Shown: positions 36,625-55,474 of the stretch, piece by piece
Layout of the letters: every line of letters begins with the position of its first letter
Numbering within the stretch: the stretch's first letter is position 1
NCBI RefSeq assembly: GCF_000712975.1
Contig: NZ_JHQL01000005.1
Span: forward strand, 62,001 to 126,000
DNA: 64,000 nucleotides
Source: Vreelandella neptunia
GTDB taxonomy: Bacteria; Pseudomonadota; Gammaproteobacteria; Pseudomonadales; Halomonadaceae
Direction: 5' to 3'
Position numbers and translations under genes: made by a program
Notes under the pieces: model-generated
What the model saw: the letters and a program-made list of their open reading frames with translations, nothing else
Database searches by the model: none
Told to the model about the DNA's origin: nothing

Positions 36625-39600
36625 CAGAAACATCTCAGCAGTGCGGGGATCGGCGCTGAGCCAAAATCGAAAACTCTGGCCGATGCGGTTCATCCCCGCG
36701 GGTGCGGGGATCGGAGAACATGCAGCACTACCAAAGCGAGTGTGTGCGCTTCATCCCCGCGGGTGCGGGGATCGGATCGACGGCGCTGATCATGTGACGT
36801 ATCAGAGCGGTTCATCCCCGCGGGTGCGGGGATCGGCAGATCTCGCGATCGAACGGCTTTCAAAACATCGGTTCATCCCCGCGGGTGCGGGGATCGGAGC
36901 GCCACCCGTACCACCCATCCCCATCATGCCGGTTCATCCCCGCGGGTGCGGGGATCGGATTGCCCAGCGTGACCGTTTGGTGGCTTTCTACGGTTCATCC
37001 CCGCGGGTGCGGGGATCGGCTGCATGAACTCGCCAACACGGTCATTAACATCGGTTCATCCCCGCGGGTGCGGGGATCGGAGCCTGCTGTCAGCCAGCAT
37101 GGAACGACTTAACGGTTCATCCCCGCGGGTGCGGGGATCGGCTGCATAGCTTCATTGACAGAGGTAACTACAGCGGTTCATCCCCGCGGGTGCGGGGATC
37201 GGATCCAGCAGCCCGACTCTTCATCGACGATATACGGTTCATCCCCGCGGGTGCGGGGATCGGCACGCTGTTAACGGTCACGCCCAGCGCTTCGGCGGTT
37301 CATCCCCGCGGGTGCGGGGATCGGCGGTAGAGCTGCAGGTAACCGCCTTCGGGCACCGGTTCATCCCCGCGGGTGCGGGGATCGGATTCGTGAATAATCA
37401 TCCCGTCAACCATGACGCGGTTCATCCCCGCGGGTGCGGGGATCGGTCAATGATCTCGATGCGCTTATCCCTAATCTGCGGTTCATCCCCGCGGGTGCGG
37501 GGATCGGTTTGCCATCAATACCGGACTGCCTTGGAACAGCGGTTCATCCCCGCGGGTGCGGGGATCGGTACTGAGGAAGCGTGATATGCAGCAGTTCCCA
37601 CGGTTCATCCCCGCGGGTGCGGGGATCGGTCGTTGACGTTCTCCCAGTCCTTTAGCAAGCCCGGTTCATCCCCGCGGGTGCGGGGATCGGATCACGAAAC
37701 GCATTCCATGCCTTTTTGTAGTCGGTTCATCCCCGCGGGTGCGGGGATCGGCGATGGCAAGAACGACCGTGCCACCCTTAGCCACGGTTCATCCCCGCGG
37801 GTGCGGGGATCGGGCACTTAATGCCTACTGTCAGCCCTGTGGCGGCGGTTCATCCCCGCGGGTGCGGGGATCGGATCAGTTCCAGCGCTTCGTCACCCAG
37901 ACGGGTCGGTTCATCCCCGCGGGTGCGGGGATCGGACATAGTCGTTACGGGCAGCGACATAAGGAGACGGTTCATCCCCGCGGGTGCGGGGATCGGCTAA
38001 GATGCCTAGCTTTTACTTTTGGGTCTTGCGGTTCATCCCCGCGGGTGCGGGGATCGGAGACACAACGCACGTTCGACATCGGCCACGCGCGGTTCATCCC
38101 CGCGGGTGCGGGGATCGGTAAACTACGGGTGATAGGCTTGTCGGCCACCCCGGTTCATCCCCGCGGGTGCGGGGATCGGAGGTCATTGCGCAGTGCCAAA
38201 AAACAGGCCAGCGGTTCATCCCCGCGGGTGCGGGGATCGGCGCCGAACGATGCAGCGCCGCGTAAATACTGTCGGTTCATCCCCGCGGGTGCGGGGATCG
38301 GTGGTACTCAGATTTACGGCGGTCGTTAATGCCCGGTTCATCCCCGCGGGTGCGGGGATCGGCTGTCTAATTTCTAAATCATGCACTGCAAAGGCGGTTC
38401 ATCCCCGCGGGTGCGGGGATCGGAGCAGGCCATGCCTAACATTGACGTTTCAAACCGGTTCATCCCCGCGGGTGCGGGGATCGGCTAATAGGCCAGTCTC
38501 ATCATCGAGATTGCTACGGTTCATCCCCGCGGGTGCGGGGATCGGTGCCCAAATTTCACCAGGGCGATTAATAGCAACGGTTCATCCCCGCGGGTGCGGG
38601 GATCGGCACTCGACTCTTTCGCCACCTCACGCAACCGGCGGTTCATCCCCGCGGGTGCGGGGATCGGGTTAGCCGGGGCCGTGGGCGGCGGGTTGCTGCC
38701 GGTTCATCCCCGCGGGTGCGGGGATCGGATAGCGAGAACGCACGCATCCAAAAGTTAATTCGGTTCATCCCCGCGGGTGCGGGGATCGGAGGTGCCAAGA
38801 TTCTGTGCCCTGCTCCAAATCCGGTTCATCCCCGCGGGTGCGGGGATCGGGCGGTCGGCCTTCTCAATAGCTTTATCGCGCTGGGTTCATCCCCGCGGGT
38901 GCGGGGATCGGAACGTAACCCGTTGGCGGGATATTAATAGAATCGGTTCATCCCCGCGGGTGCGGGGATCGGCGAAAGAAAGCCCACCTTCAGGTTTTTT
39001 CTCGCGGTTCATCCCCGCGGGTGCGGGGATCGGGGGGTCGAAGTCAACGAAAAGCACTTTGTAGCCGGTTCATCCCCGCGGGTGCGGGGATCGGGCTAGC
39101 GGCGCATCTTTAGAAAAGCCAATTTTCGGTTCATCCCCGCGGGTGCGGGGATCGGTGCTCAAGACAGCGCGCCGTTTCCGGGCATCGCGGTTCATCCCCG
39201 CGGGTGCGGGGATCGGTTCGGTGGCTCCTGGGAAACCAAAGACGGCGGCGGTTCATCCCCGCGGGTGCGGGGATCGGGCCTTGGCTAGGTCTAGCTCATC
39301 GCGGTAGTGCGGTTCATCCCCGCGGGTGCGGGGATCGGTTCAAAAGGAGAAAGCAAATGCAGTGGCGTAACGGTTCATCCCCGCGGGTGCGGGGATCGGC
39401 AGATTAGCGACACAACAGAGACAGATCAAGCCGGTTCATCCCCGCGGGTGCGGGGATCGGAAGCTCGCGGTTAATCGTTGCATTCGCTCTACCGGTTCAT
39501 CCCCGCGGGTGCGGGGATCGGGTTTCATCAAACGCGCCCCACTGGCTGGCGAACGGTTCATCCCCGCGGGTGCGGGGATCGGAAAACGCCGCGTCAAGTC

Positions 39601-42600
39601 ATCTTTGTTTTTCACGGTTCATCCCCGCGGGTGCGGGGATCGGCCGCTGAATCTCTTTCGAGATGCGCTCGCTGGCGGTTCATCCCCGCGGGTGCGGGGA
39701 TCGGGTGTTTAGGGGGTGAAGATGAATGAGCCAAAGCGGTTCATCCCCGCGGGTGCGGGGATCGGAAGATCAGTGTCACCAATGTTCGTGATTCTCACGG
39801 TTCATCCCCGCGGGTGCGGGGATCGGTGTTTCAGGATGCACAGACGGCGGTAGGACGTCGGTTCATCCCCGCGGGTGCGGGGATCGGTCTTTTTGTTCCA
39901 GGCACCACGCCTGCCAATACGGTTCATCCCCGCGGGTGCGGGGATCGGTGGGCGAACAGGCGCATCGCCTAGACTCCACGCGGTTCATCCCCGCGGGTGC
40001 GGGGATCGGCGGCGTTGTCGTAAAGGTCACGCGGGTCTGCGCGGTTCATCCCCGCGGGTGCGGGGATCGGATCGATACACCAGCGTGTCACCAGACGCAA
40101 TGCGGTTCATCCCCGCGGGTGCGGGGATCGGGACACCTACCCAGAGCAGTTGATTGAAGCATACGGTTCATCCCCGCGGGTGCGGGGATCGGAGCAGGAG
40201 GTGTGCAGCCCTCTACGCTCTATGCGGTTCATCCCCGCGGGTGCGGGGATCGGGCAACAAAGTCGCCAATTCGGTCGTTAACGTCCGGTTCATCCCCGCG
40301 GGTGCGGGGATCGGAGCAGGAGGTGTGCAGCCCTCTACGCTATATGCGGTTCATCCCCGCGGGTGCGGGGATCGGGGGCTTTTTCATGCCTAGAGGAAAG
40401 CAAATGGCGGTTCATCCCCGCGGGTGCGGGGATCGGATACCGAAAATAGGATCATCCGGGTTCGGCAGCGGTTCATCCCCGCGGGTGCGGGGATCGGACC
40501 CACGGCACCGACGCAATCAGCTTGGCGCGCGGTTCATCCCCGCGGGTGCGGGGATCGGGGACTTCCCCGAGCGCATGGAGACACAATATGGCGGTTCATC
40601 CCCGCGGGTGCGGGGATCGGGCGGGCGATATTGTCAGCTTTGCAGAGAGAGGCGGTTCATCCCCGCGGGTGCGGGGATCGGGTTTTTAAGGTCATAGATA
40701 TAGGAGTAGTAGGCGGTTCATCCCCGCGGGTGCGGGGATCGGCCAGTGCAATACCGCTGGAACACTCGGTTTATCGGTTCATCCCCGCGGGTGCGGGGAT
40801 CGGTTTTAATGCCTCGGCAAACTCGGCGCGGGGATCGGTTCATCCCCGCGGGTGCGGGGATCGGCCACACAGGCGGTTCCAGGGTGCCATCCGAACCGGT
40901 TCATCCCCGCGGGTGCGGGGATCGGCCTATACCACCTTCCGCAAGCAGATCCAGGCGCGGTTCATCCCCGCGGGTGCGGGGATCGGTATGTACTTCTCGC
41001 CGTTGTCGTCCTCGAACTCGGTTCATCCCCGCGGGTGCGGGGATCGGTTGAAGGTTCGTCAGGTGACGTTCGCCCTCCCCGGTTCATCCCCGCGGGTGCG
41101 GGGATCGGACGCCCACTTGTCCGCTAGGGATGCGTCCGCCCGGTTCATCCCCGCGGGTGCGGGGATCGGAGATAGAATAGAACGTTTAAAAGTATCTAGC
41201 TCGGTTCATCCCCGCGGGTGCGGGGATCGGAAGAATATGGGAAAGGCGTTGTAGCTGGATGGCGGTTCATCCCCGCGGGTGCGGGGATCGGGTATTGGCC
41301 GAGCGTAAAGACAACCGAGGCTTTCGGTTCATCCCCGCGGGTGCGGGGATCGGGCCTGGCACACCCGCGAGGATCGTTTCACTGACGGTTCATCCCCGCG
41401 GGTGCGGGGATCGGCGCTATGCAGGCACAAACGTGGCCCCGAATGGCGGTTCATCCCCGCGGGTGCGGGGATCGGGAGTCCTAAAAAATGAAAGTAGCTG
41501 TCATGAACGGTTCATCCCCGCGGGTGCGGGGATCGGAATAGGTAGCCAAACATCAGGATTGTCCCCTACGGTTCATCCCCGCGGGTGCGGGGATCGGGAG
41601 CGTATAAGATCAAACTCTGTTTCTGACAACGGTTCATCCCCGCGGGTGCGGGGATCGGTGCATACCGTTGAGCACGGGCTGGATAGCCTGTGGTTCATCC
41701 CCGCGGGTGCGGGGATCGGCTGTACGAATGCCTGGCGGGCACCTGCAATACCGGTTCATCCCCGCGGGTGCGGGGATCGGTAGCTCCATTCTGTAAACCA
41801 ATCGGAGCGAGACGGTTCATCCCCGCGGGTGCGGGGATCGGTATTAGGTATCCTAAGCTCCCTGATGAGTCCCCGGTTCATCCCCGCGGGTGCGGGGATC
41901 GGCGAAAAAGAAGAAATGGCACAGCAAATAGTAGCGGTTCATCCCCGCGGGTGCGGGGATCGGTGGTTCTTGGTCGGTCTTTGAGATTGAACAGCTGGTT
42001 CATCCCCGCGGGTGCGGGGATCGGGCGATATAGGCACGGGCAATCAACAAATACAGCGGTTCATCCCCGCGGGTGCGGGGATCGGGCTACCATTAGACGA
42101 AGCTGAAGCGCTAGTAGCGGTTCATCCCCGCGGGTGCGGGGATCGGGCTATTAATCTCATTTAATTTACTAACACAATCGGTTCATCCCCGCGGGTGCGG
42201 GGATCGGATGAATACCCAAGAGGGAAGAGATATTTCAAACGGTTCATCCCCGCGGGTGCGGGGATCGGCCCCGCGCGTCTCGTCCCTTCGGGTAACGATC
42301 CGGTTCATCCCCGCGGGTGCGGGGATCGGACACAAGGCAAGCATTTAGGCGTAAAAGAGTGCGGTTCATCCCCGCGGGTGCGGGGATCGGGCGTCCTATC
42401 TCGTCAACGGCGATGCCAGCGGCGGTTCATCCCCGCGGGTGCGGGGATCGGAGCTCGGCAACCAGTTTTTGCTGGGTCTGAACCGGTTCATCCCCGCGGG
42501 TGCGGGGATCGGATCCTCGGCTTCGGTGCGCTCTGCGTCCCATGCGGTTCATCCCCGCGGGTGCGGGGATCGGTTGAGTCAGAACTAAACGATTAACACG

Positions 42601-45600
42601 CCTCCCGGTTCATCCCCGCGGGTGCGGGGATCGGAGCTGTGTACTCGCTCGGCGCGAGGGGGCTTGCGGTTCATCCCCGCGGGTGCGGGGATCGGGGCTT
42701 GGGCTTGGACTTGAGAATTACCATTATTCGGTTCATCCCCGCGGGTGCGGGGATCGGGGATGGGGTTGTTGAGGAGTCACTATGACCAGCGGTTCATCCC
42801 CGCGGGTGCGGGGATCGGAACACGCCTGCCCCGTGGCGTTAATAGCGGGGCGGTTCATCCCCGCGGGTGCGGGGATCGGGCCCCATGCGCCGCACAAGAC
42901 GCGGATCATGCCGGTTCATCCCCGCGGGTGCGGGGATCGGCCTTTACTGAACTCTCGGCCTAAGTCGCTGGCCGGTTCATCCCCGCGGGTGCGGGGATCG
43001 GCTCCCGGCCGCTTTCATCGACATAAGGAACGCCGGTTCATCCCCGCGGGTGCGGGGATCGGTAGCCTTTTGTTTCTTGCGCTCCTTTTTTTGGCGGTTC
43101 ATCCCCGCGGGTGCGGGGATCGGCCTGGGAGAAGGGCGCTTAACGCTATTACATACGGTTCATCCCCGCGGGTGCGGGGATCGGAGTTCTTGTAGCTTAT
43201 CAGGCGTATTTAACGGCGGTTCATCCCCGCGGGTGCGGGGATCGGGTCACAGCGCTGTTCGATATTGTGCAGTATGGCGGTTCATCCCCGCGGGTGCGGG
43301 GATCGGGGGCTGGAGCGCCCCTTCTTATCGCTAATTGGCGGTTCATCCCCGCGGGTGCGGGGATCGGGTCGTGCATAGATGCGCCACGGTGCAGTCGTAC
43401 GGTTCATCCCCGCGGGTGCGGGGATCGGGATGGCAAGCACGACAGTGCCGCCTTTAGCGACGGTTCATCCCCGCGGGTGCGGGGATCGGTGGCCAACTGC
43501 CTGCGCCATGTTTCCGCTTAGCGGTTCATCCCCGCGGGTGCGGGGATCGGATCGCCACGTTCAGTGCTATCCAGCTCCTCAACGGTTCATCCCCGCGGGT
43601 GCGGGGATCGGAGTTTTTCAGGGAATGGTGCCGGGTGGCTGGTCGGTTCATCCCCGCGGGTGCGGGGATCGGGTAATCATCGTCACCGCTTGCTCGCAAT
43701 GTACCGGTTCATCCCCGCGGGTGCGGGGATCGGTTCTTGACGCCGATATGGAAGTCCAGGGTGTGCGGTTCATCCCCGCGGGTGCGGGGATCGGGACCAA
43801 GGGCGCGGAAGGCCGGAAACACCACGCGGTTCATCCCCGCGGGTGCGGGGATCGGACATGAAGGCTCCTTTATCAATCCAGCATGCGCGGTTCATCCCCG
43901 CGGGTGCGGGGATCGGGTGGCCCTAGTGGCATTAAAAATATTATCAATCGGTTCATCCCCGCGGGTGCGGGGATCGGAATTAAACGATATGTCAGACACG
44001 GATAAGGCCGCGGTTCATCCCCGCGGGTGCGGGGATCGGAACTAAAACCACGTTCCGATGCCGCTAAGCAACGGTTCATCCCCGCGGGTGCGGGGATCGG
44101 GTTTGATGCTGGTTTAGGGGCTTTTGCTTTAACGGTTCATCCCCGCGGGTGCGGGGATCGGATGATCGCTTTATACGATCTGAAGAATCCCCGCGGTTCA
44201 TCCCCGCGGGTGCGGGGATCGGTAACTTTCTCTGATAAGAACATGAATAAGCAACGGTTCATCCCCGCGGGTGCGGGGATCGGTCCTCAGCTCGGTTTCT
44301 GGCGAAGGCTCTTTGCGGTTCATCCCCGCGGGTGCGGGGATCGGTTGTATATATTCTCATCACTCACTCCCCTCTGCGGTTCATCCCCGCGGGTGCGGGG
44401 ATCGGGTACTCGACGCGAATCTCCTGGCCTTGCAGCGCGGTTCATCCCCGCGGGTGCGGGGATCGGTCAACGTGCTTTGAGTTCCAGCGCTTGCGGTACG
44501 GTTCATCCCCGCGGGTGCGGGGATCGGATTTTGATCTTACGAAGTGTAACAGCGTCTAACGGTTCATCCCCGCGGGTGCGGGGATCGGCATGGCAGTACC
44601 GTTTTTACGCTTTACGCCTGCGGTTCATCCCCGCGGGTGCGGGGATCGGGTTGTGATGTTCATTGTTTGCCCTCTTATGAGCGGTTCATCCCCGCGGGTG
44701 CGGGGATCGGTTTCCGGCATTCCATGCCTGTGCGAAGTGCTGGCGGTTCATCCCCGCGGGTGCGGGGATCGGACTATTAGTTTTTTCATAATTATTCTTC
44801 CCCGCGGTTCATCCCCGCGGGTGCGGGGATCGGGCGCTGGCATTGTTTAGTCGTTGGTTTCATAGGGGTTCATCCCCGCGGGTGCGGGGATCGGGCGGCT
44901 TTTTTAACTGCGCTTGCTCAAACTTGCGGTTCATCCCCGCGGGTGCGGGGATCGGTGATGGGCGCAACACATCCAGCACCACATTTACGGTTCATCCCCG
45001 CGGGTGCGGGGATCGGAATCTCAGTTATTTCGAACTGCCCTGCTAGGTCGGTTCATCCCCGCGGGTGCGGGGATCGGTGGGCAAGCAGGCACACCGTCTA
45101 GATTCAACCCGGTTCATCCCCGCGGGTGCGGGGATCGGATGTCTTGCAGGCGCTGGTCAATGTCGCGCCGCGGTTCATCCCCGCGGGTGCGGGGATCGGG
45201 TACCCGGCACTCTCGCGAGCTACAACATTGCCGGTTCATCCCCGCGGGTGCGGGGATCGGGATCGACGTAGATGATTAGGCCTGGCTCATACCGGTTCAT
45301 CCCCGCGGGTGCGGGGATCGGCTCACCAGCAACGCGAGCAGCAAAGCCGCAAGCGGTTCATCCCCGCGGGTGCGGGGATCGGCCGTTTTGATCCTGCCAT
45401 TTGCGCGTTTGCATCGGTTCATCCCCGCGGGTGCGGGGATCGGTATCCCCGTGGTTAATCGTGACGCGAATCCAACGGTTCATCCCCGCGGGTGCGGGGA
45501 TCGGTTCTGCTTGAGCAAATCAGAGCGCGACTGGTACGGTTCATCCCCGCGGGTGCGGGGATCGGCTGAACGTCACGGTGTGCTTGCTGGCGTCGTGCGG

Positions 45601-45809
45601 TTCATCCCCGCGGGTGCGGGGATCGGCCAAAAGCGCTCCACAAATTCTCAAGACATCTCGGTTCATCCCCGCGGGTGCGGGGATCGGTCTCGCACCTGAT
45701 CAGCAAAGGCGCCTAGTGGCGGTTCATCCCCGCGGGTGCGGGGATCGGTCTTGCGAACCAAGGCATCCTTCTCTTCATCGCGGTTCATCCCCGCGGGTGC
45801 GGGGATCGG
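36625..45809 (-). CRISPR. Type I-E CRISPR array, 150 full repeats plus one degenerate, 150 spacers
   Basis: The 29-bp repeat, read on the minus strand (crRNA sense), begins CCGATCCCCGC and ends GCGGGGATGAACCG. It has an 8-bp ATCCCCGC/GCGGGGAT hairpin stem and the ATGAACCG 5' handle typical of I-E. Full repeats start at 36686 and the last at 45781. Walking every interval gives 149 spacers between full repeats: 143 of 32 nt and six of 33 nt. One more spacer (36654-36685) lies next to a degenerate repeat at 36625-36653 in which only the 13 bases GTGCGGGGATCGG are intact, so that is the trailer end. The leader and cas2 adjoin the 45809 end, so new spacers enter there. Nearly all repeats are identical, as expected of an active array. 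Variants: position 1 (plus strand) is G at 38883 and 44866 and T at 41691 and 41996; the repeat at 36747 has CGCTTC. Confidence 0.98.
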
Positions 45810-45919
45810 ACTAGTTGTAGATAATTGATCTACAAAAAGAAAATAGCAGATAAAAAATTTACCGGCTATTTTGCTTACTTTTTAACCAGATCAAATTATT
45901 AAAGATCAAATAAAATCAG
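45810..45919 (-). promoter_or_regulatory. CRISPR leader
   Basis: The 110 bases between the first repeat and the cas2 stop are strongly AT-rich, as leaders are. Immediately next to the array is an 8-bp inverted repeat (45815-45835). An IHF-like sequence (ATCAA, N4, TTA at 45890-45901, plus strand) lies about 80 bases from the repeat. The array promoter and the integration signals should be here. Confidence 0.85.
45815..45835. repeat. Leader-anchoring palindrome beside the first repeat
   Basis: TTGTAGAT-AATTG-ATCTACAA, an exact 8-bp inverted repeat starting 6 bases from the newest CRISPR repeat. It could bind a host factor or Cas1-Cas2 during spacer integration, or be part of the crRNA promoter. 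Confidence 0.65.
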
Positions 45920-46213
<294 letters not shown>

Positions 46214-47134
46214 TTATCCGCTCCTATGCCCAGCATCACCAACTGAAGGTGGCTCTGGAATAGCAGGTGGCACTGAATCAGGTGCTGGCGGAGGTGGCTG
46301 AATATCGCCAGCGGCAAGCACATCTTCGATCATGGGGATTAAGCGCTGGAGTATGCGGGATTGCTTGAATGCATCTCGGCAAGCGATACGAACTTCCCTT
46401 TCTGGCATAGGCGGATTACGTGCCGCAACCCGAAAAGCCGCGGGCACCACCGTTTCAAACTTGACGATATCGGCAATATCGTAAACAAAACTCAACGGCT
46501 TGCCGGTATGAAGATACCCAATCGCTGGAGCGTAGCCTGCTGCCAAAATAGCCGCTTCGGTAATCCCGTATAAGCAGGCAGTTGCTGCTGATAGGCATTG
46601 GTTAGCGACATCGGAGGCGTCCCACTGTTTAGGATCGTAGCGGCGCCCGTTCCATTTAACGCCATATTGTTTGGCTAATAGTTGATAGGTTTTCCGAACT
46701 CTGGCGCCTTCCATACCGCGTAGTTGCTCGATGCTGCGACGAGAAGGTGGCTCTTCGCCAAAACGCAGTTCAAACATTTTACGTACCACTTTCAGACGCA
46801 ACTTTTCATCCAGCGCCAGCTGCGCTTGGTACAACAATTTGTCTGATCGCGCACCGCCCGGCTGACCTGCGCTATAGAGCCTTACGCCAGCATCACCCAC
46901 CCAAATCAGTAGCGTGCCCACCGCAGCGGCTAGCTTTATGGCGGCATGTGAAACCCGTGTGCCCGGCTCCAGTAGCAGGCACGCCACTGACCCGACCGGG
47001 ATATGCATGCGCTCGCCGTTCACGTCGTCGACCACAACAAAGGCGCCGTCACGAACATCTATCTGCCCCATCCCGATAAAGATCATCGACATACGGTCTT
47101 TTTCGGGGATGGGCTTTAGCGGAATAAAGCCCAT
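46214..47134 (-). CDS. cas1: CRISPR-associated integrase Cas1 (type I-E)
   Basis: A 306-aa Cas1e that integrates new spacers. The active-site residues fall at Glu142 (RGMEGARVR), His209 (GYLHTGKPLS), Asp219 and Asp222 (VYDIADIVKFE), one number off E. coli Cas1, so the enzyme should be active. The C-terminus is a proline-rich tail (PPPPAPDSVPPAIPEPP), longer than usual. It lies between cas6e (9-base gap) and cas2 (no gap). Confidence 0.95.
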   Translation of the reverse strand: MGFIPLKPIPEKDRMSMIFIGMGQIDVRDGAFVVVDDVNGERMHIPVGSVACLLLEPGTRVSHAAIKLAAAVGTLLIWVGDAGVRLYSAGQPGGARSDKLLYQAQLALDEKLRLKVVRKMFELRFGEEPPSRRSIEQLRGMEGARVRKTYQLLAKQYGVKWNGRRYDPKQWDASDVANQCLSAATACLYGITEAAILAAGYAPAIGYLHTGKPLSFVYDIADIVKFETVVPAAFRVAARNPPMPEREVRIACRDAFKQSRILQRLIPMIEDVLAAGDIQPPPPAPDSVPPAIPEPPSVGDAGHRSG

Positions 47135-47143
47135 ATTGGTCTC

Positions 47144-47833
47144 CTAAGGACGGCGCAGTAGTAACAAACCACCGCCAAACGCTTTGGCCCGCCCAATTCC
47201 GTGGACCATTGTTTCGATCAGCTTTCCTGGATTTGTCACTTCCAGCAGACCTTCGTAATCCACCGTAGAGAACTGAACCGGCTTTCCGCTACCTTTATTC
47301 AGCACATGTTGGCGATAAGCACCGAGCTCTGGCGTAACTGGCAATCGAAAGCCCCATGTTTCAGCGCGGCTTTCGAGCCATTCACGGGCTTTACCATTCA
47401 TCGCATCGACACAGGCTTGGCTGGTGCGCTGCCCCGGTGGAAATGGCTTTTTGGCTGCCATCAGCACATCGGCGCGCTGGCCACGTTTTCCAGGAATGGG
47501 AACTGCTACCGTGGGGTTCGCACGCAGGCGAAATGCTAGCGTATCACCAACGTTGAGCTCTGGCGTGAAGGGTTTGCTCTCGGCGTTAAGCAGACCCGTC
47601 ACCGAGGTAGGCTCACGGTCTGAAAGAACGTAAAACAGCGGTAACCCTTTGGTACTTCTACCCTCCTCGGCATCTTCCATTTCTTGTCGGAAAATAAATG
47701 GTCGAGCCCCTTCATAATCTGGGAAGAGCTGCCATAAGAGCTGGTGTGCCGTGTAAGCTTCAGCGTTCATCACATCAAACAGCTTTTCTCGAGGCAGCCC
47801 ATTCAGGTCGATACGCACGCGTGAGAGATACAT
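47144..47833 (-). CDS. cas6e: crRNA endonuclease Cas6e (CasE)
   Basis: Processes the pre-crRNA at the base of each repeat hairpin and stays bound to the crRNA 3' end. The protein is 229 aa, two ferredoxin-like domains. The catalytic His is probably His30 (EAYTAHQLLWQLFP). The C-terminal glycine-rich loop is HGIGRAKAFGGGLLLLRR. The frame is open upstream to 47920, but the ATG at 47833 overlaps the cas5 stop (TAATG) and gives the standard start MYLSRVRIDL. Confidence 0.93.
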   Translation of the reverse strand: MYLSRVRIDLNGLPREKLFDVMNAEAYTAHQLLWQLFPDYEGARPFIFRQEMEDAEEGRSTKGLPLFYVLSDREPTSVTGLLNAESKPFTPELNVGDTLAFRLRANPTVAVPIPGKRGQRADVLMAAKKPFPPGQRTSQACVDAMNGKAREWLESRAETWGFRLPVTPELGAYRQHVLNKGSGKPVQFSTVDYEGLLEVTNPGKLIETMVHGIGRAKAFGGGLLLLRRP

Positions 47834-48585
47834 TAACTCGCCTCCTCGTTCGACTGGGTACGGCGAAACTCCAACCGTGGGCCAAACTGCCAGCGGCGGC
47901 GATTCAGTGGTAAATCCCACACATCATTGTATTCTGCCGCTTGACCATCGCCATCTAACCTACTGGCTTCACCCTCCCAGGCATATAAAGCTTCCTCAGG
48001 AAAGCGAAGCACCGTTCTGTCTTCTCGACCGTTGAACGCCAGTGCAGGAAATGCCGCATCAAGTGCTTCTTTGAGCGTGCTGCACTGCTGCCGCTGAGGT
48101 GCCAACGGCGCAGCGGGCGGGCAGGATTTACGCCCTAGATAAAGCGGGTAATGTGGCGTTTTCAGCGCTTGCTCAAGCTCAGCCAGCGTCAGGCTGGCCG
48201 CTGGCGTTAGCCATATAGCTATTGTCCATAGACCATCGCAGCGATAGTCACGGCTGGATAGTATCGTTTTCAGCGCATCACGCGGCCCGCTAAGCTCTTC
48301 TTTGCGGGTGGCGTAACTCACCTTTGATTGTGAAGCGGGTACCTGCACCGTATGGTAATCACGCATCAGCAGGCCGGGGGTGTACTGTTTTACGCCCATG
48401 GCAATGCTTTCGCGTAACTGTGCCTGGCCCTGGTCGTCATCGCGACGTACGCCCAACGCTGCCCCGAGCAACCCAAGTACGGCGCCTTTACCAGGATAAG
48501 TAGCCGTTGGGCGCGTTTCACCAACGGCCGCTTCGCCCCAACTGGCCAGCGGCGCATAAAGCCGAAAAATAAGATAGTCGGTCAT
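47833..48585 (-). CDS. cas5e: Cascade subunit Cas5e (CasD)
   Basis: Caps the 5' handle of the crRNA in Cascade (250 aa). The N-terminus MTDYLIFRLYAPLASWGEAA carries the family pattern LxxPLxSWG, and the segment GETRPTATYPGKGAVLGLLGAALG is characteristic. It overlaps cas6e by one base and follows cas7 by 9 bases. Confidence 0.93.
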   Translation of the reverse strand: MTDYLIFRLYAPLASWGEAAVGETRPTATYPGKGAVLGLLGAALGVRRDDDQGQAQLRESIAMGVKQYTPGLLMRDYHTVQVPASQSKVSYATRKEELSGPRDALKTILSSRDYRCDGLWTIAIWLTPAASLTLAELEQALKTPHYPLYLGRKSCPPAAPLAPQRQQCSTLKEALDAAFPALAFNGREDRTVLRFPEEALYAWEGEASRLDGDGQAAEYNDVWDLPLNRRRWQFGPRLEFRRTQSNEEAS

Positions 48586-48594
48586 GCCGCCCCC

Positions 48595-49686
48595 TTATTG
48601 GTCAGTTTTCAGGAAGCCAAGTAGCTCCGTCAGAGTGCCTTTCTTAACATCACCTTTTAGTTGAGGTTGTTCATAGTCAGGTTCGGCACTGATGACAAAT
48701 CGACTGTCAGCGCCTGCTTCGTAGGCGTTATCAAACGCATTGGCTTGCGCTTCTATGCGCTTAATAGCGTCAAGCGCCTGATTTTGACCCACCACAGGCC
48801 GCAGGTAGGCAGTGGAAAGCGAACGTGGCTGTTGATTGCCTTTTTCGGCTAGCACATAGCTCGCATGGGCGCGGGAGCCGAAGCTGTTTTGCTTACCTTT
48901 GGGTGAAGTTTTGACAGCCGCTTCCACTAGGGCCGCAATCGCCTGATCGGCTAGCTCGCTGTTGCCTTGCAGGTTTTCTACCAGTTGTTGGCGGTCGATG
49001 CAGATATACAGATAGAACAGCCCCGCACCAAAGCCGGATTCTCCGATATGGGCAGCACCACGGTCTTTATCACCCGTGTTCAAGTCATCGACTGCCGTGA
49101 AGTAATCATCTTCCACTTCGGCAGCATGCACAGTGATGGCGTGAGCGACCTGGCAGGCGGCATCGACGTTATACTCGGGAACAGCGGCCAGCATGCGGCC
49201 AAACAGTGCCACATCAGCAGCGGCAGGTTTGTGGCGTAAGAGCTTTAGCTCATCATCGTTGGGCTCGCGTTTTTCTTCCGCCAGTGTTTCTACCAGCTCG
49301 CTGATCGCTAGGCGCTCTTCCAGGCCAACGTGGACTAACTGCTCAATCTCAAACTCTTTGGCTTCACCTTTTTCTACTTTGCGAAGCTTGCCAAACACAC
49401 CGGCAATCTTTTCTGCGCAAGCACCTGCCGTTTTCTGATCAACGCCCTTCTCGATTAATTGATCATAAGCTTCTTTTCCTAAACGCTTGGTGCGGGTACC
49501 GACATGCCCGGCCAGGGCTTCTTCAAATAGCGCAGAGGTACGCCAGGTACGTTTCAGGCTTTGAGAAGAAACACGCAGGCGTTTTGCACCACCCATCAAG
49601 GCTGTTTTAGGGCGTCCCAAATCATCGCGGTTCAGGTTAGCGGGCGGATAAGAGGTTAGCAGGTGCAGTTGAATAAAGTGGCTCAT
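48595..49686 (-). CDS. cas7e: Cascade backbone subunit Cas7e (CasC)
   Basis: Six copies form the crRNA-binding backbone of Cascade. The 363-aa protein begins MSHFIQLHLLTSYPPANLNR, the standard Cas7e start (NLNRDDLGRPKTA). It includes RVSSQSLKRTWRTS and GEAGFG-type HIGESGFGAGLFYLY segments and ends with GTLTELLGFL. A 58-base gap separates it from cse2, the largest gap within the Cascade genes. Confidence 0.94.
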   Translation of the reverse strand: MSHFIQLHLLTSYPPANLNRDDLGRPKTALMGGAKRLRVSSQSLKRTWRTSALFEEALAGHVGTRTKRLGKEAYDQLIEKGVDQKTAGACAEKIAGVFGKLRKVEKGEAKEFEIEQLVHVGLEERLAISELVETLAEEKREPNDDELKLLRHKPAAADVALFGRMLAAVPEYNVDAACQVAHAITVHAAEVEDDYFTAVDDLNTGDKDRGAAHIGESGFGAGLFYLYICIDRQQLVENLQGNSELADQAIAALVEAAVKTSPKGKQNSFGSRAHASYVLAEKGNQQPRSLSTAYLRPVVGQNQALDAIKRIEAQANAFDNAYEAGADSRFVISAEPDYEQPQLKGDVKKGTLTELLGFLKTDQ

Positions 49687-49744: not shown

Positions 49745-50410
49745 TCAGTCGCCGCAATGGCTGTAGCGAGACGTTGCGGCAAAATAGTCGTTCGCTAATA
49801 CAAAGCCGAGCCGTTGCGTCGGCTTGGCAGACAAACGCCCACGATGCTCGCGCCACCAGAGTGAGATAACGCTTGCTAGCAGGACAACGCTGATGTCTTT
49901 CTTATCAGCCAACGCCAGCGCACGGCGTAAGCGCTGAATAAACTCTTCAGGGGTTTGGCAGGAAAGCAGTTGCTGAAAGCGCAGCTCGCTCATCAAGGCT
50001 TTACCAGACGACTCTTTTTGCTGGCCAAGGCGTGTGGCTAATGAGATACCGTCCTTTTCGCCGCGGAGTTCTGCGACGATCAACGCGATGCAAGACCATA
50101 CTTGTAGCTTTTCAGCGCGGTAATCCGTTTGCTTCGTAGCCTCCGGCAGCGCTACCCATAGTTCACGAAAACCTTGGGTTAGCATTGCCGCATCGGCGCT
50201 ATCACATCGGCGCAGCACCGCGCCGACTCCACGTGGCAACGACCGCTGATTGGTGAGTTTTGCCAGCTCGTGCGGGGGTAGCGTTAATCGTTGCCACCAA
50301 CGGCGTAAAGCGGTAGCTTCGGCATACGTCAAAGCCACTAGCGATTTTTTCTCCGCCTCGGTCAATAACTCATCTTTTTCGGATGTTTCCGGCGTTACTA
50401 AATCACTCAT
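49745..50410 (-). CDS. cse2: Cascade small subunit Cse2 (CasB)
   Basis: Two copies line the belly of Cascade and steady the displaced DNA strand. This helical protein is 221 aa, a little longer than E. coli CasB (160 aa). Typical segments are ATALRRWWQRLTLPP, RGVGAVLRRCDSADAAM and CQTPEEFIQRLRRALALAD. The ATG overlaps the cas8e stop (TGATG). Confidence 0.92.
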   Translation of the reverse strand: MSDLVTPETSEKDELLTEAEKKSLVALTYAEATALRRWWQRLTLPPHELAKLTNQRSLPRGVGAVLRRCDSADAAMLTQGFRELWVALPEATKQTDYRAEKLQVWSCIALIVAELRGEKDGISLATRLGQQKESSGKALMSELRFQQLLSCQTPEEFIQRLRRALALADKKDISVVLLASVISLWWREHRGRLSAKPTQRLGFVLANDYFAATSRYSHCGD

Positions 50411-52113
50411 CAGGCGTCTCCAGTCGTTGTTACAGCAGAGGCCTCGTTACGCTTGGCCTTCGCGGATGGGTCAAAACTTCCCTGCTTGATAAAATCACTG
50501 ACCACTTTGCTGCCTTTACTCTTGCCACTCAGAAAGTGTTGCAACTGCCGGTGAGCGGCGGTGGCACGTTCAAGATCCATGCTTTCATGGGCACCGCTGA
50601 GCGCCAGATCTTCAAATACACGCATGGCCTCATACTTCAAGGCGAAGTACCAGTTCTCAGCAACACTGGAAGGGATATGCGGCGCAGAAGGGTTATCTTG
50701 CAATGACTGTCGAAGCCCTAGCAGGGCTTTGAAAAACACCGCTTGAGTCGCATCGTAAAACTGGCTATCAATGGCGCTCATATCGCCCTTGGCATCTGAC
50801 GGGCGCGAAAACCAAGCGTTTTTCACCTGAGTGCGTACCATCCAGGCGATATTGCGGGCAAGCTCGGTCAGTTGCTGTATCCATACACGCAATTTTTCCT
50901 GCTGGCCTTGTGGAATTTCCACCAGCGGCATTTCGATGCTGTACCAACCGCGCGGCTTCATGTTGTCCATGTCGTAGCCAAACACCCATAGGCGGGTCTC
51001 TCTCAGCAGCGCCTGGATGTTATCGTCGAAACGACGCTCTTGCGTTACTAGCGGTTGCTTGCCATCGATATAGCTTTTCAGCACCGCTGCCGCTATCGCG
51101 CCACTGTTATCTTCATCATGGAGCACGAAGCCGGACCAATGCCGATAACCCAGCCCGCCGGGTTGGCCTTTGCTGGATAGCGGCAACTCATTTGGTTTCT
51201 TAGGGTCGCGTCGGTAAGGCGTCAGCGGATGTAGCCAGGGGCCATCGTAATTGGCCCCCTGTTTTTTGGCGCGTAATTCACGTACCAACCGCTGCGTTTT
51301 ACGCCCGCAGATATCGCATGTACATTCATCAGCTTCATCAAACAGGAGCCGAAAACGGCGCGGCATTGACCAGTAAGCGTGTAGTGGGTGGGTGTCTTCA
51401 GGTAGCACTTCAGTGCCTTTTTTATCGCTTACCCGCGTATTGGCCATCCAGAAAAATAGCGAAGGCTCTTCTGGATGCGGTGTCGACCACTGCTGTCCTT
51501 TCTGAATGGCTTCTTTCTGCGTAATGACGTTTAGCCACAGCCGCTCCCACAAGCGGGCTGTGGACAACTCAGGCATGACCAATGTTGTCAGCGGGCCTCC
51601 GCCCCGTAGGCCCACGCGAATACCGGCGCCGCCTGCGGGGGCGTTAATCTGCATAGTGTAAAGCGCTATGGCTGCGCAAGAATCGCACATCGCGTCAACG
51701 CGGCCGCGTTTAACAAAGAAGTCGGTATTGTTCTTAATGCCGTTCGCACCGGGTGCATCAATCAAGAGGCCGCTGACAGTGGCATTCTTAACATCTTCCA
51801 GCGGGTCAAGATCCTGCATAAAGCGAGGGCCGTCGCCATCCAGCTCAAAAGCACTATTGAAAGGCTCGAACGCTGTGTCCAAAGCTGCAACACTGGGTGG
51901 TTCAAGCAATCTATCAAGCCAATCGTCATGAGTTTTCGGCGACAGTGCCGTTTGCAGCAGACCAATCAGAAACTGGTAAGCAGCCCCCTGAAAATCCGCA
52001 CGCGGTAGAGCAAGATTGATGACGTCAGGATCAGCCAGCGCTGAGGGCGCGCGATAGTCCACCTCACCGCTTTTCAGCAGAAAAGGTAGCCAGGGATCGT
52101 TAAGTAGGTTCAT
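50410..52113 (-). CDS. cas8e: Cascade large subunit Cas8e (Cse1/CasA)
   Basis: Recognises the PAM and recruits Cas3. Starting from the ATG at 52113 it is 567 aa (MNLLNDPWLPFLLKSGEVDY, the family start); a GTG at 52119 is the alternative. The region FDLDGDGPRFMQDLDP-like and the L1-loop region KNNTDFFVKRGRVDAMCDSCA are present. A Cys pair typical of Cas8e follows (DECTCDICGRKTQ). Its promoter must lie within about 90 bases upstream or inside the antisense DUF29 gene, because cas3 transcription is interrupted there by an opposing gene. Confidence 0.93.
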   Translation of the reverse strand: MNLLNDPWLPFLLKSGEVDYRAPSALADPDVINLALPRADFQGAAYQFLIGLLQTALSPKTHDDWLDRLLEPPSVAALDTAFEPFNSAFELDGDGPRFMQDLDPLEDVKNATVSGLLIDAPGANGIKNNTDFFVKRGRVDAMCDSCAAIALYTMQINAPAGGAGIRVGLRGGGPLTTLVMPELSTARLWERLWLNVITQKEAIQKGQQWSTPHPEEPSLFFWMANTRVSDKKGTEVLPEDTHPLHAYWSMPRRFRLLFDEADECTCDICGRKTQRLVRELRAKKQGANYDGPWLHPLTPYRRDPKKPNELPLSSKGQPGGLGYRHWSGFVLHDEDNSGAIAAAVLKSYIDGKQPLVTQERRFDDNIQALLRETRLWVFGYDMDNMKPRGWYSIEMPLVEIPQGQQEKLRVWIQQLTELARNIAWMVRTQVKNAWFSRPSDAKGDMSAIDSQFYDATQAVFFKALLGLRQSLQDNPSAPHIPSSVAENWYFALKYEAMRVFEDLALSGAHESMDLERATAAHRQLQHFLSGKSKGSKVVSDFIKQGSFDPSAKAKRNEASAVTTTGDA

Positions 52114-52201
52114 GTACACCTCGATAGTGTCGTCTGGTGTTATTGCTTGGTTTACACTGAAACATGTGGGAATCAGTCAGCAGACGGGGAGGATCAGGAC
52201 A

Positions 52202-52633
52202 ATGGCGATTCATTATGAACAGGATGCCTACGCCTGGGCGCTTGAACAGGCGGGGCTGCTGCGGGCTGGAAAAGTGGATAAGCTGGATCTTGAGCATCTC
52301 GCTGAGGAGATTGAAAGCATGGGAAAAAGCGAGCGACGCGCCTTGATCAGTCAGCTGGCCCGCTTGCTGATGCACCTGCTGAAATGGGATCACCAGCCGG
52401 ACAGGCGCTCGCGCAGCTGGCGGCTGACAATTCAGGATGCGCAAAGCAAGGTAAACCGTTTGTTGAAAGACAACCCTAGCTTGAAAGCATCGCTGCCTGA
52501 TCTGATGAATGAAGCCTATGAAGATGCACGTCGAGCGGCGGCCATCGAAACAGACCGCGAGCCGCAAGACTTTCCCGAACCGTGCCTGTACAGTTTTGAA
52601 GAAGCCATCAACTTTCAGCCCAGCGAACACTGA
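52202..52633 (+). CDS. DUF29 family protein inside the cas operon (opposite strand)
   Basis: A 143-aa protein with the DUF29 pattern: HYEQDAYAWALEQAGLLRAG, then DLEHLAEEIESMGKSERRAL, then HLLKWDHQPDRRSRSW. The ATG at 52202 follows GGGGAGGATC and is preferred over the long extension starting at 52112. DUF29 proteins are small and helical, common in cyanobacteria and proteobacteria, with no known function. The gene sits between cas3 and cas8e on the other strand: head to head with cas8e (88 bases apart) and tail to tail with cas3 (5 bases apart). It could control the cas promoter, be a passenger, or be a CRISPR-linked accessory. Confidence 0.85.
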   Translation: MAIHYEQDAYAWALEQAGLLRAGKVDKLDLEHLAEEIESMGKSERRALISQLARLLMHLLKWDHQPDRRSRSWRLTIQDAQSKVNRLLKDNPSLKASLPDLMNEAYEDARRAAAIETDREPQDFPEPCLYSFEEAINFQPSEH

Positions 52634-52638
52634 GCGAC

Positions 52639-55314
52639 TCATGACGTTTGCTCTTTAGCGCCAAGCCGAACGCCCCATTGGGTATCATAGCCACAATCCG
52701 GGTCATCATTAGGCAGCCAGGGCTGAGTATATTTCAGCACTTTATAGCGCTCTTGAAGGGTAAGCCACTGGCTTTCATAGCGGCTTGGCAACGCTGCCAA
52801 CTTGGTAGCCTGGCTTTGGCGTAGCTTCACCTGGCTGAGCATATCAGCATGGCGGCCCTCTCCCGCCCATAGCGCCAGCTCGTCACCGTCAGAGAATGAC
52901 AACAGCACGACATTAATGGTTGGCTCATCCATCAAGCGTGTGCCTATCTCTTGTTCTTCCTGCCATTGATCGCTTTTGACGTAGCCCTCTTCAAGATCAA
53001 GTGCATTGAATGTCGCCATCGAACCAGCCGTTCTCTGCATGCCTTTTTGCTCATAGCGAGCAGTCTGAAGACCATCAGGAATAACGTCAGCGACGCGGCC
53101 GTAAACGCCTTCAATAAGCTCTCTCGCCTCTTCGGGTAGACGTATCGCTTCCAGGTGGCGCAATACTCGCTGGGTTAGCCAGCTCAGCGAGGTGTCGCGG
53201 TAAACGGCCTGAGTACCTGGCAGTGTTCGCTGCAGCCATTTTTCATCGGGGTCATCTGACCATGGCGGTGCCAGAACTAAAAGCCGTGGTGGGCAGCGCA
53301 ACCCACGCTGATGGCGCTGCAAACGCCCAGCCCGCTGGATAAGTAAATCAATGGGTGCGATATCGCTGACCATCACATCCACATCACAGTCCAAGGACTC
53401 CTGGAATACCTGCGTGCTGATTAACACCTGGCCCTTGCGCATGTCGGGTGTCGAATCCTTGCCTAAACGCTCAATGACCTGAGATTCAATGCGCTGCCTA
53501 TCCACCATGGCAAAACGACTGTGGAATAGCAGGCAGTGCTCTGGGTCAGGATGGCGGGCAGCAATCGCTTCAAACGCGCGAATAGCGTCATCAACGGTAT
53601 TGCGCACCCAGGCAATACACTCACCGGCCTCTATTGCCGCCAGCACAGCATCAATGGCCTGCTCTTCTTCGGTTAGCCAATCAACCTCTACGCTTCTAGC
53701 AACTTCCTTGCGTGAGCCAAGCGGCAATTCTAGCGGCTGCCCTTCACTCACATGAGTCAGAAGCGGAAAATCATCTTTTTGTGGCGTTGTTTCTGACTGG
53801 CCAAGTCCTGCTTGCCAAGCAGCCATCAAGTCACTGCGCATAGCGCGGGGAAGCGTCGCGGTTAACAGAATAGCGCTACCGCCCTGCCGAGCGTGGTAGC
53901 TTAGTAGCTGGCTTAGCAGCGTCTGCATGTAATTGTCGTAGGCATGCACTTCATCAATCACTAACACCTTGCGCGCCAGCCCATACAATCGCAGTGACTG
54001 ATGACGAAATGGCAAAATAGCCATCAGCGCCTGATCGATAGTGCCGACACCGACTTCAGCCAACAGTGCTTTTTTACGCGAGTCCGCTAGCCATTGATTA
54101 CAGCGGCTGGTCGCTGAGAGCTCACTGCTGGTGTAATCAAGATCGCCAGGATGAGGCGCCGCAACCGCTGCCATAAAATCATCGTTTAAATCCCGCGCCC
54201 CATGGGCAAGAACAAAAGAAGGCATTGATTCAGCGGTGTAAAATCGACGATGTAAATTGCCTAGCCGTGCATACATGGCGTTAGAAGTGGCCATTGTAGG
54301 CAGTGCAAAATAAAGCCCATCGCCATGACCTGCTGCCAACAGGCGCTGGGTAAGAATGCAGGCAGCTTCTGTTTTCCCTGAACCTGTCTCATCTTCCAAT
54401 ATAAACAGCTGTGGCCCATCGGTAATTGCCACCGTTTCCGCTGCGTGCTGCAAAGGGGTAGGCGTGACAGTTTGCTGGCCAAACCAGCTTGCCATACCCG
54501 CGTAAGGAAGTGGCTCAGGGAGGCGTTTAAATCCTGTTTCTTGCAGTGCCCGCTCTGCGTTAGCCAACGCCATTTGCCAGTAATCAGTAAGTGGCATCTT
54601 CATTTGGTGGTAAGCAAAGTGATCCTGATTAGAACCTAACCAATCACTTAATGTTGCCCAGCCTGCAATTGACCAGCTTAAGGTTTGCAGCGCATAAACC
54701 CACTCTTCAGAAAACAGCTGCTCGGTGGGCCAATCTGGCGGGACAATGTCGGCCCAATCAGCAATAAACTGACGCGTTGCCTCCACGTCATCTGCGTGTT
54801 GATCACGGCAAAAGAATGCCTCTACATCAACTTTTCCTGCCTCAACAGGCTGGCCGTGATGGCCGAAAAAAGGCGGTGTGAGGACAGGCAAAGCTGCGCG
54901 TAGCGCCTTGCGCTCCATACGGCTAAATCCAGCAGGCCATCGTAGCGTGCCGTCTTCAAACCATTCATGCCATTTAGCCTCCCAAATCACTGCGCCTAAG
55001 CGGTCATGGCGCTGCGTATAGGCACATTGTGCTATTGGCGGTACCAAATCTTGATTTGCTGAAGATGTAAAAAGCCCTTGAAAAGCTCGTGAGAACTTAC
55101 CGATATCGTGCAGGCCAAGCCAAAAAACCAATAGCTGGCGCAGCGCTTCAGGTTTAAGACTTAGTTGTGCTGCCAAGCGTTGCGTCAGCGGCCTATCAGG
55201 CGAAAGCAATAGCCAACCCACAGCAGCAACATCGAGGTTGTGATAAGGCAATAGGTGGCACTCAACAGCCTGCCCTTTGGCCTGCGCTTTACCCCAGTAG
55301 CGGTAGTAAGTCAC
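52639..55314 (-). CDS. cas3: CRISPR-associated nuclease/helicase Cas3
   Basis: Cas3 (891 aa) nicks and degrades DNA marked by Cascade. The HD nuclease has His25 (LLPYHNLDVA), His69-Asp70 with Lys73 (WLGLHDIGKFSRAFQ) and the later HH in PFFGHHGQPVEAG. The helicase shows ETGSGKTEAA (Walker A), VIDEVHAYD (DExH), LLTATLP and QRAGRLQRHQR (motif VI). An ATG at 55356 is in frame, but the GTG at 55314 has a very strong ribosome site (AAGGAGG, plus-strand 55320-55326) and begins the usual MTYYRYWGKA, so GTG is chosen. It is the first cas gene; its 3' end meets the DUF29 gene. Confidence 0.95.
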   Translation of the reverse strand: MTYYRYWGKAQAKGQAVECHLLPYHNLDVAAVGWLLLSPDRPLTQRLAAQLSLKPEALRQLLVFWLGLHDIGKFSRAFQGLFTSSANQDLVPPIAQCAYTQRHDRLGAVIWEAKWHEWFEDGTLRWPAGFSRMERKALRAALPVLTPPFFGHHGQPVEAGKVDVEAFFCRDQHADDVEATRQFIADWADIVPPDWPTEQLFSEEWVYALQTLSWSIAGWATLSDWLGSNQDHFAYHQMKMPLTDYWQMALANAERALQETGFKRLPEPLPYAGMASWFGQQTVTPTPLQHAAETVAITDGPQLFILEDETGSGKTEAACILTQRLLAAGHGDGLYFALPTMATSNAMYARLGNLHRRFYTAESMPSFVLAHGARDLNDDFMAAVAAPHPGDLDYTSSELSATSRCNQWLADSRKKALLAEVGVGTIDQALMAILPFRHQSLRLYGLARKVLVIDEVHAYDNYMQTLLSQLLSYHARQGGSAILLTATLPRAMRSDLMAAWQAGLGQSETTPQKDDFPLLTHVSEGQPLELPLGSRKEVARSVEVDWLTEEEQAIDAVLAAIEAGECIAWVRNTVDDAIRAFEAIAARHPDPEHCLLFHSRFAMVDRQRIESQVIERLGKDSTPDMRKGQVLISTQVFQESLDCDVDVMVSDIAPIDLLIQRAGRLQRHQRGLRCPPRLLVLAPPWSDDPDEKWLQRTLPGTQAVYRDTSLSWLTQRVLRHLEAIRLPEEARELIEGVYGRVADVIPDGLQTARYEQKGMQRTAGSMATFNALDLEEGYVKSDQWQEEQEIGTRLMDEPTINVVLLSFSDGDELALWAGEGRHADMLSQVKLRQSQATKLAALPSRYESQWLTLQERYKVLKYTQPWLPNDDPDCGYDTQWGVRLGAKEQTS

Positions 55315-55474
55315 TGCTGCCTCCTTGCGCCTTTGTCTATCCCTCCATCTAACCATTCTTTACTCACCCTCGCTATTGACCTTAGTCATACTTAGCGCTC
55401 CTGAACACCACGCCATCTCGTTGCACGTGACGTGCTACGCTTTACGTTACTTTTTCTTATTTAGGTAATTTGCT

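Follow-up and report, generated by a model that had tools for sequence, protein, structure and literature searches.

Why should one array of clustered regularly interspaced short palindromic repeats (CRISPR) hold two spacers that differ from each other only at every third base? The question is raised by a 64,000-nucleotide stretch of Vreelandella neptunia DNA (contig NZ_JHQL01000005.1, positions 62,001 to 126,000), here called the window, in whose numbering all coordinates are given. Its CRISPR array (36686..45809, minus strand, as are all spacers and cas genes below) comprises 150 near-identical repeats of 29 bp and 149 spacers of 32-33 nt, numbered from S1, the newest, at the 45809 end. The two spacers are S39 (43429..43460), the newer, and S132 (37752..37784), the older. 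The answer we favor, and hold to be very probable from their sequences, is that a single coding site was captured more than once from diverging relatives.

A probable single coding site in two spacers

S39 (32 nt) and S132 (33 nt) are identical at 27 of 32 positions in the aligned 32-mer. The mismatches lie at plus-strand positions 10, 16, 22, 25 and 31, corresponding to positions 2, 8, 11, 17 and 23 of the CRISPR RNA (crRNA) strand, and one codon phase holds all five (p 0.0059). Coordinates, match count and phasing had been reported in an initial annotation made from the letters alone, and all are borne out. The minus-strand translation is AKGGTVVLAI for each spacer. In the type I-E system of Escherichia coli, the last base of the repeat, a G, derives from the protospacer; counting that G here adds a leading valine codon to the reading, and this codon too is synonymous (GTC/GTG). 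The opposite-strand frame is also open and reads MA[S/R]TTVPPLA. Because that reading costs one amino-acid change, the AKGGTVVLAI strand is favored as the likely coding strand; the initial annotation's peptide on the crRNA strand therefore stands as what both spacers read, while the strand itself is favored rather than proven.

The two spacers coincide at the end adjoining the upstream repeat, the side of the protospacer-adjacent motif (PAM). It had been claimed that a common boundary means a common PAM site; the common ends are observed, and the PAM is deduced from them. Between S39 and S132 lie 92 spacers, close to the 90 or so first estimated.

Two simpler origins were weighed for the pair. 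With 149 spacers there are 11,026 pairs among which a chance likeness of unrelated spacers could be picked out, but a comparison of all 149 that took no account of codon phase gave S39/S132 a z of 7.3, against a maximum of 4.9 over five shuffles, on the same strand and at offset 0. Together with the codon-phased mismatches, this leaves coincidence with almost no probability. Duplication of a single captured spacer within the array, followed by mutation, has precedent in related arrays, where exact duplicates are known, partly as blocks. Spacers 13-17 of one such array (L177) recur as 19-23, and spacers 114-115 of another (L185) as 116-117, which shows that arrays in the genus do rearrange. Drift within an array, however, would not confine changes to third codon positions. 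The repeats flanking S39 and S132 are unmutated, the spacers differ in length, and their neighbors are dissimilar, none being paired with each other among the 25 most similar spacer pairs. Because the differences are codon-phased and the flanking spacers unpaired, we regard duplication with drift as very unlikely.

Recurrence of same-site pairs

The S39/S132 pair is not alone. In the phase-blind comparison three further pairs exceeded the shuffles, so that the four pairs of the array were picked without regard to codon phase. S12 (45078..45109) and S96 (39949..39980) match at 24 of 32 positions, with seven of the eight mismatches in one phase (p 0.0015); a degenerate peptide from one of the two possible readings of this pair has no match in IMG/VR. 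S90 (40315..40346) and S92 (40193..40224) match at 31 of 32, the mismatch falling at position 5. S91 (40254..40285) and S144 (37020..37051) are identical at 21 of 31 positions with a one-base offset (z 5.1). When the phasing of the four pairs was pooled, the observed value was reached in one of 200,000 simulations.

For S91 and S144 the encoded peptide, [D]VNDR[IV]G[DE]F, leads to a gene. Its degenerate motif has at least 120 matches in IMG/VR, and nearly all of the matches listed stand in the context DI[L/F]KDVNDRVGDF or near it. Two full proteins with the motif were scanned against PHROGs, and both are tape-measure proteins. Homologous sites in the tape-measure motif match the spacers at 23-26 of 32 positions; S91 fits the form DVNDRIGDF, and S144 lies at the same site one base further. 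At 26 of 32, the homologous site is flanked by AAG for S91 and by AGG for S144. S91 and S144 thus appear to be one site slipped by one base.

S103 (39522..39553) offers a recurring site whose target gene can be named. It matches one IMG/VR contig at 32 of 32 positions and two at 31 of 32, with AAA adjoining the site. In genomes of the genus the homologous site was found at 30 of 32 (G013) and 27 of 32 (G012), with AAG beside both; three more diverged copies (25, 23 and 23 of 32) have a CGG flank. The target gene is a phage P-like helicase loader (phrog_109), in which the site encodes FASQWGAFDET, and 55 of 275 genomes of the family, the host's own not among them, contain relatives at an E-value of 1e-10 or lower. 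The same site is also a spacer in two other genomes, once in G039 and twice in G044, with identical register every time. Judged by sequence, the S103 site repeats the S39/S132 pattern in a case where the target gene is identified. The G044 array on contig C60 (L350) has two recapture pairs of its own: spacers 51 and 82, which match at 30 of 32 and belong to the S103 site, and spacers 37 and 40, which match at 31 of 32 and belong to another. The 149 spacers were further compared with 20 stretches (10 loci) around the S103 gene in genomes of the family, plus three IMG/VR contigs; the shuffle maximum of 17.5 was exceeded solely by S103 and by one site of S13 (45017-45048). The S13 site is a phased 23/32 match in a terminase large subunit gene of G024 (L330, minus strand), flanked by GGG.

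A similar repeat, at three mismatches allowed, is present in 26 of 82 genomes of the genus, the host included. Arrays were taken from 18 of the other 25, with a second array from G044; the remaining seven, with one to three repeats each, were excluded, as were 12 spacers of an irregular array in G021. The set compared was 1,049 spacers from 19 arrays in 18 genomes. Scoring across arrays was phase-aware, and phase is therefore no independent evidence there. Thirteen non-identical pairs at eight sites scored above the highest shuffle (16.5; 15.3 in a further four shuffles). Register is identical at seven of the eight sites, the eighth (spacers 77 and 78 of L176) being one base off. S91/S144, which fell below the shuffles in this scoring (13.7), was added on the strength of the phase-blind comparison and the motif, and spacers 19 and 27 of L186 overlap on opposite strands over 21 identical bases. 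With exact within-array duplicates left out, there are ten recurring sites in all: seven in the same register, two one base off and one overlapping. Two of the recurring sites map, by sequence, to phage genes, those for the tape measure and the helicase loader.

Chance resampling, directed recapture and the missing protospacer

Several results count against repeated capture of coding sites as the explanation. Taken alone, S91/S144 is not significantly phased (p 0.13), and one recurring pair in the same register, S11 with spacer 48 of L172, is not codon-phased. Above all, a protospacer for S39/S132 was not found in IMG/VR, in genomes representing species, in the 275 genomes of the family, or among phages and plasmids. 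The initial annotation had proposed searching with spacers and peptide for one protein family that contains the peptide, and no such family emerged: the exact degenerate AKGGTVVLAI has no match in IMG/VR or in a collection of one genome per species, and the opposite-strand MAxTTVPPLA has none in IMG/VR. Across the family genomes, a 15-residue read-through peptide returned its two places in the array and two weak hits with E-values of 2.6 and 7.6, and a consensus with three mismatches gave good matches in the host array alone. Single-spacer blastn, a weak instrument at such divergence, gave nothing better than E 0.4 against phages and plasmids. As a control, the S103 read-through was run against the 82 genomes of the genus; three of them yielded the natural gene, with 83% identity at E about 0.015, but the copies in G005, G024 and G060, which are more diverged, were missed, and the negative for S39/S132 in family genomes therefore covers close relatives only. 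AKGGTVVLAI is absent from 50 of 54 IMG/VR tape-measure records, partially covered, a result that without a known positive shows nothing; at up to three substitutions it is absent from stretches of 120 loci, the host array excepted.

Relaxed forms of the peptide matched 11, 14 and 7 stretches in IMG/VR and 84 genome stretches, 80 of which were read in frame; the in-frame reading scatters the matches over many unrelated families. An ATPase-like protein (L223, LRRFIAKGGTVILAGHANKH; phrog_6357, function unassigned), with relatives in two of the 275 family genomes that lack AKGGTVVLAI, is too weak a lead to claim, as is a short membrane-like open reading frame containing GGTVVLAI (L352, no PHROG). 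Among phage records the top one, from a Lelliottia phage, aligns with the whole of S39 at 26 of 32 positions, on the strand opposite the annotated gene, and a match of S132 to the lysozyme gene of RcapMu lacks the peptide in its frame; both were set down to chance. Because no protospacer turned up, we infer the gene, strand and PAM of the S39/S132 target from the spacers themselves. Capture twice from diverged relatives of a putative invader, as first proposed, remains the best reading on phase, neighbors and recurrence.

How much recapture should be expected? The sequence surrounding the S103 gene in the genus, 214 kb in all, contains about 1,157 AAG-anchored protospacers per 40 kb. If 149 spacers are drawn at random from two or three phage clades, the number of clades being an assumption of the model, 4.8 or 3.2 same-site pairs are predicted, respectively, and four are seen. 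Chance resampling suffices for the number of pairs: since it predicts three to five, that number needs no extra cause. The pair had been presented as a notable event, a view that this expectation does not support. Same-site recapture is what an active type I-E array would be expected to show, activity here being predicted from sequence.

Under the favored explanation, S39 and S132 would be ordinary Cas1e-Cas2e captures at one PAM-anchored site, drawn from relatives within a group of phages that persists. The capture of S132 would have preceded that of S39 by about 92 insertions, and since the conserved codons had kept the PAM next to them, Cas1e-Cas2e would have taken the identical register twice. 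Read from the sequences, the S132 guide would meet the S39 target with mismatches rG-dG at position 2, in the seed, rG-dT at 8, rU-dG at 11, rG-dA at 17 and rU-dC at 23. According to PMC12871591, on type I-E primed adaptation, a purine facing dG is one of the most damaging seed mismatches, and mismatches in the seed can prevent interference yet permit priming. With these five mismatches the S132 guide should have cut the S39 donor element poorly, though it might still have primed; given the kinds of seed mismatch described there, S132 probably gave poor protection against the donor. The second capture would then have been useful, because the older guide should no longer cut that donor well. 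For this pair we infer phage origin, loss of interference and any priming alike.

The same mismatches bear on whether recapture was directed, the old crRNA having weakly bound the diverged site and primed, or a Cas1-Cas2 hot spot having favored the register. In favor of such direction, seed mismatches may stop interference but leave priming, according to PMC12871591, and of the ten recurring sites nine keep the register exactly or to within one base (p 0.033 against random AAG sites). Strictly identical register, at seven of ten, is unremarkable (p 0.32), however, detection is biased towards full overlaps, and the pair count is explained without it. Priming, moreover, yields spacers along the element with no particular preference for the priming site. 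We consider directed recapture unlikely. A hand count of six within-array same-register pairs found five that differ in the first eight positions, where about 3.3 are expected; the count falls to four of six without position 6, and no seed bias is claimed. A broader proposal is that arrays of the genus track coding sites of persistent temperate phages, with weak binding by the old guide steering recapture of the escaped site. It is likewise improbable; if true, a single array would preserve successive silent versions of the same codons.

The type I-E system and what the pair records

The order of the two captures follows from the leader. The minus-strand sequence upstream of the array (45810..45919), between it and cas2e, resembles the sequence upstream of eight related arrays, closely in six, and is read as the leader; its position beside the 45809 end means that the array grows there, and thus that S39 is the newer and S132 the older. 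Beyond it lie cas2e (45920..46213), cas1e (46214..47134), cas6e (casE, 47144..47920, start codon provisional), cas5e (casD, 47833..48585), cas7e (casC, 48595..49686), cse2 (casB, 49745..50410), cas8e (casA, 50410..52119) and cas3 (52639..55356), so that the type I-E gene set, encoded together, is complete. Seven of the eight Cas proteins pass the cut-off of an NCBIfam I-E model; Cas3 passes the Cas3 core and HD cut-offs, falls below that of the full-length PRK09694 (459 vs 569 bits) and has Cas3e as its best PADLOC match.

The locus resembles the E. coli type in its gene set, its 29-bp repeats, its 32-33-nt spacers and a leader beside cas2. Flanks of homologous sites are mixed: AAG adjoins the closest S103 and S91 homologs found in bacterial prophages and IMG/VR, and AAA, AGG or CGG adjoins others. 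The locus differs from the E. coli type in the length of its array and in a DUF29 gene (52112-52633) that separates cas3 from cas8e and is encoded on the plus strand, opposite to both. The related loci L171, L181 and L350 show that arrangement too, and a query with the opposite-strand frame of this stretch found relatives in 14 of the 82 genomes of the genus. In the species' other genome, G037, the array repeat has no match at up to three mismatches. S7 (45383-45414) agrees at 28 of 29 bases with the gene for single-strand binding protein in eight Vibrio phage records (E 0.03).

Independent capture of one protospacer has been seen before. In a priming experiment with a Legionella type I-C system, two of 23 spacers were acquired separately at the same protospacer (PMC5071653); that case concerns one plasmid in an experiment, whereas the array described here is natural and its pair silently diverged. 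The primed adaptation of PMC12871591 shares with our pair the interference-harming seed mismatches that the S132 guide would face on the S39 target; for our pair, priming is only a possibility. Among the titles and abstract openings searched, coverage that leaves out most subscription journals, we found no description of silent recapture within one array. What this analysis adds is a natural instance in which the divergence is silent, and the finding that the pattern recurs in other arrays of the genus.

The accepted view of type I-E function is unchanged by the pair. S39 and S132 would preserve, within the memory of one host, an earlier and a later state of a single coding site, and together with the other pairs they allow one to ask whether recapture of diverged sites is random or aided by the old guide. 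Such same-site pairs may point to the phage sites that are conserved enough to be captured again.

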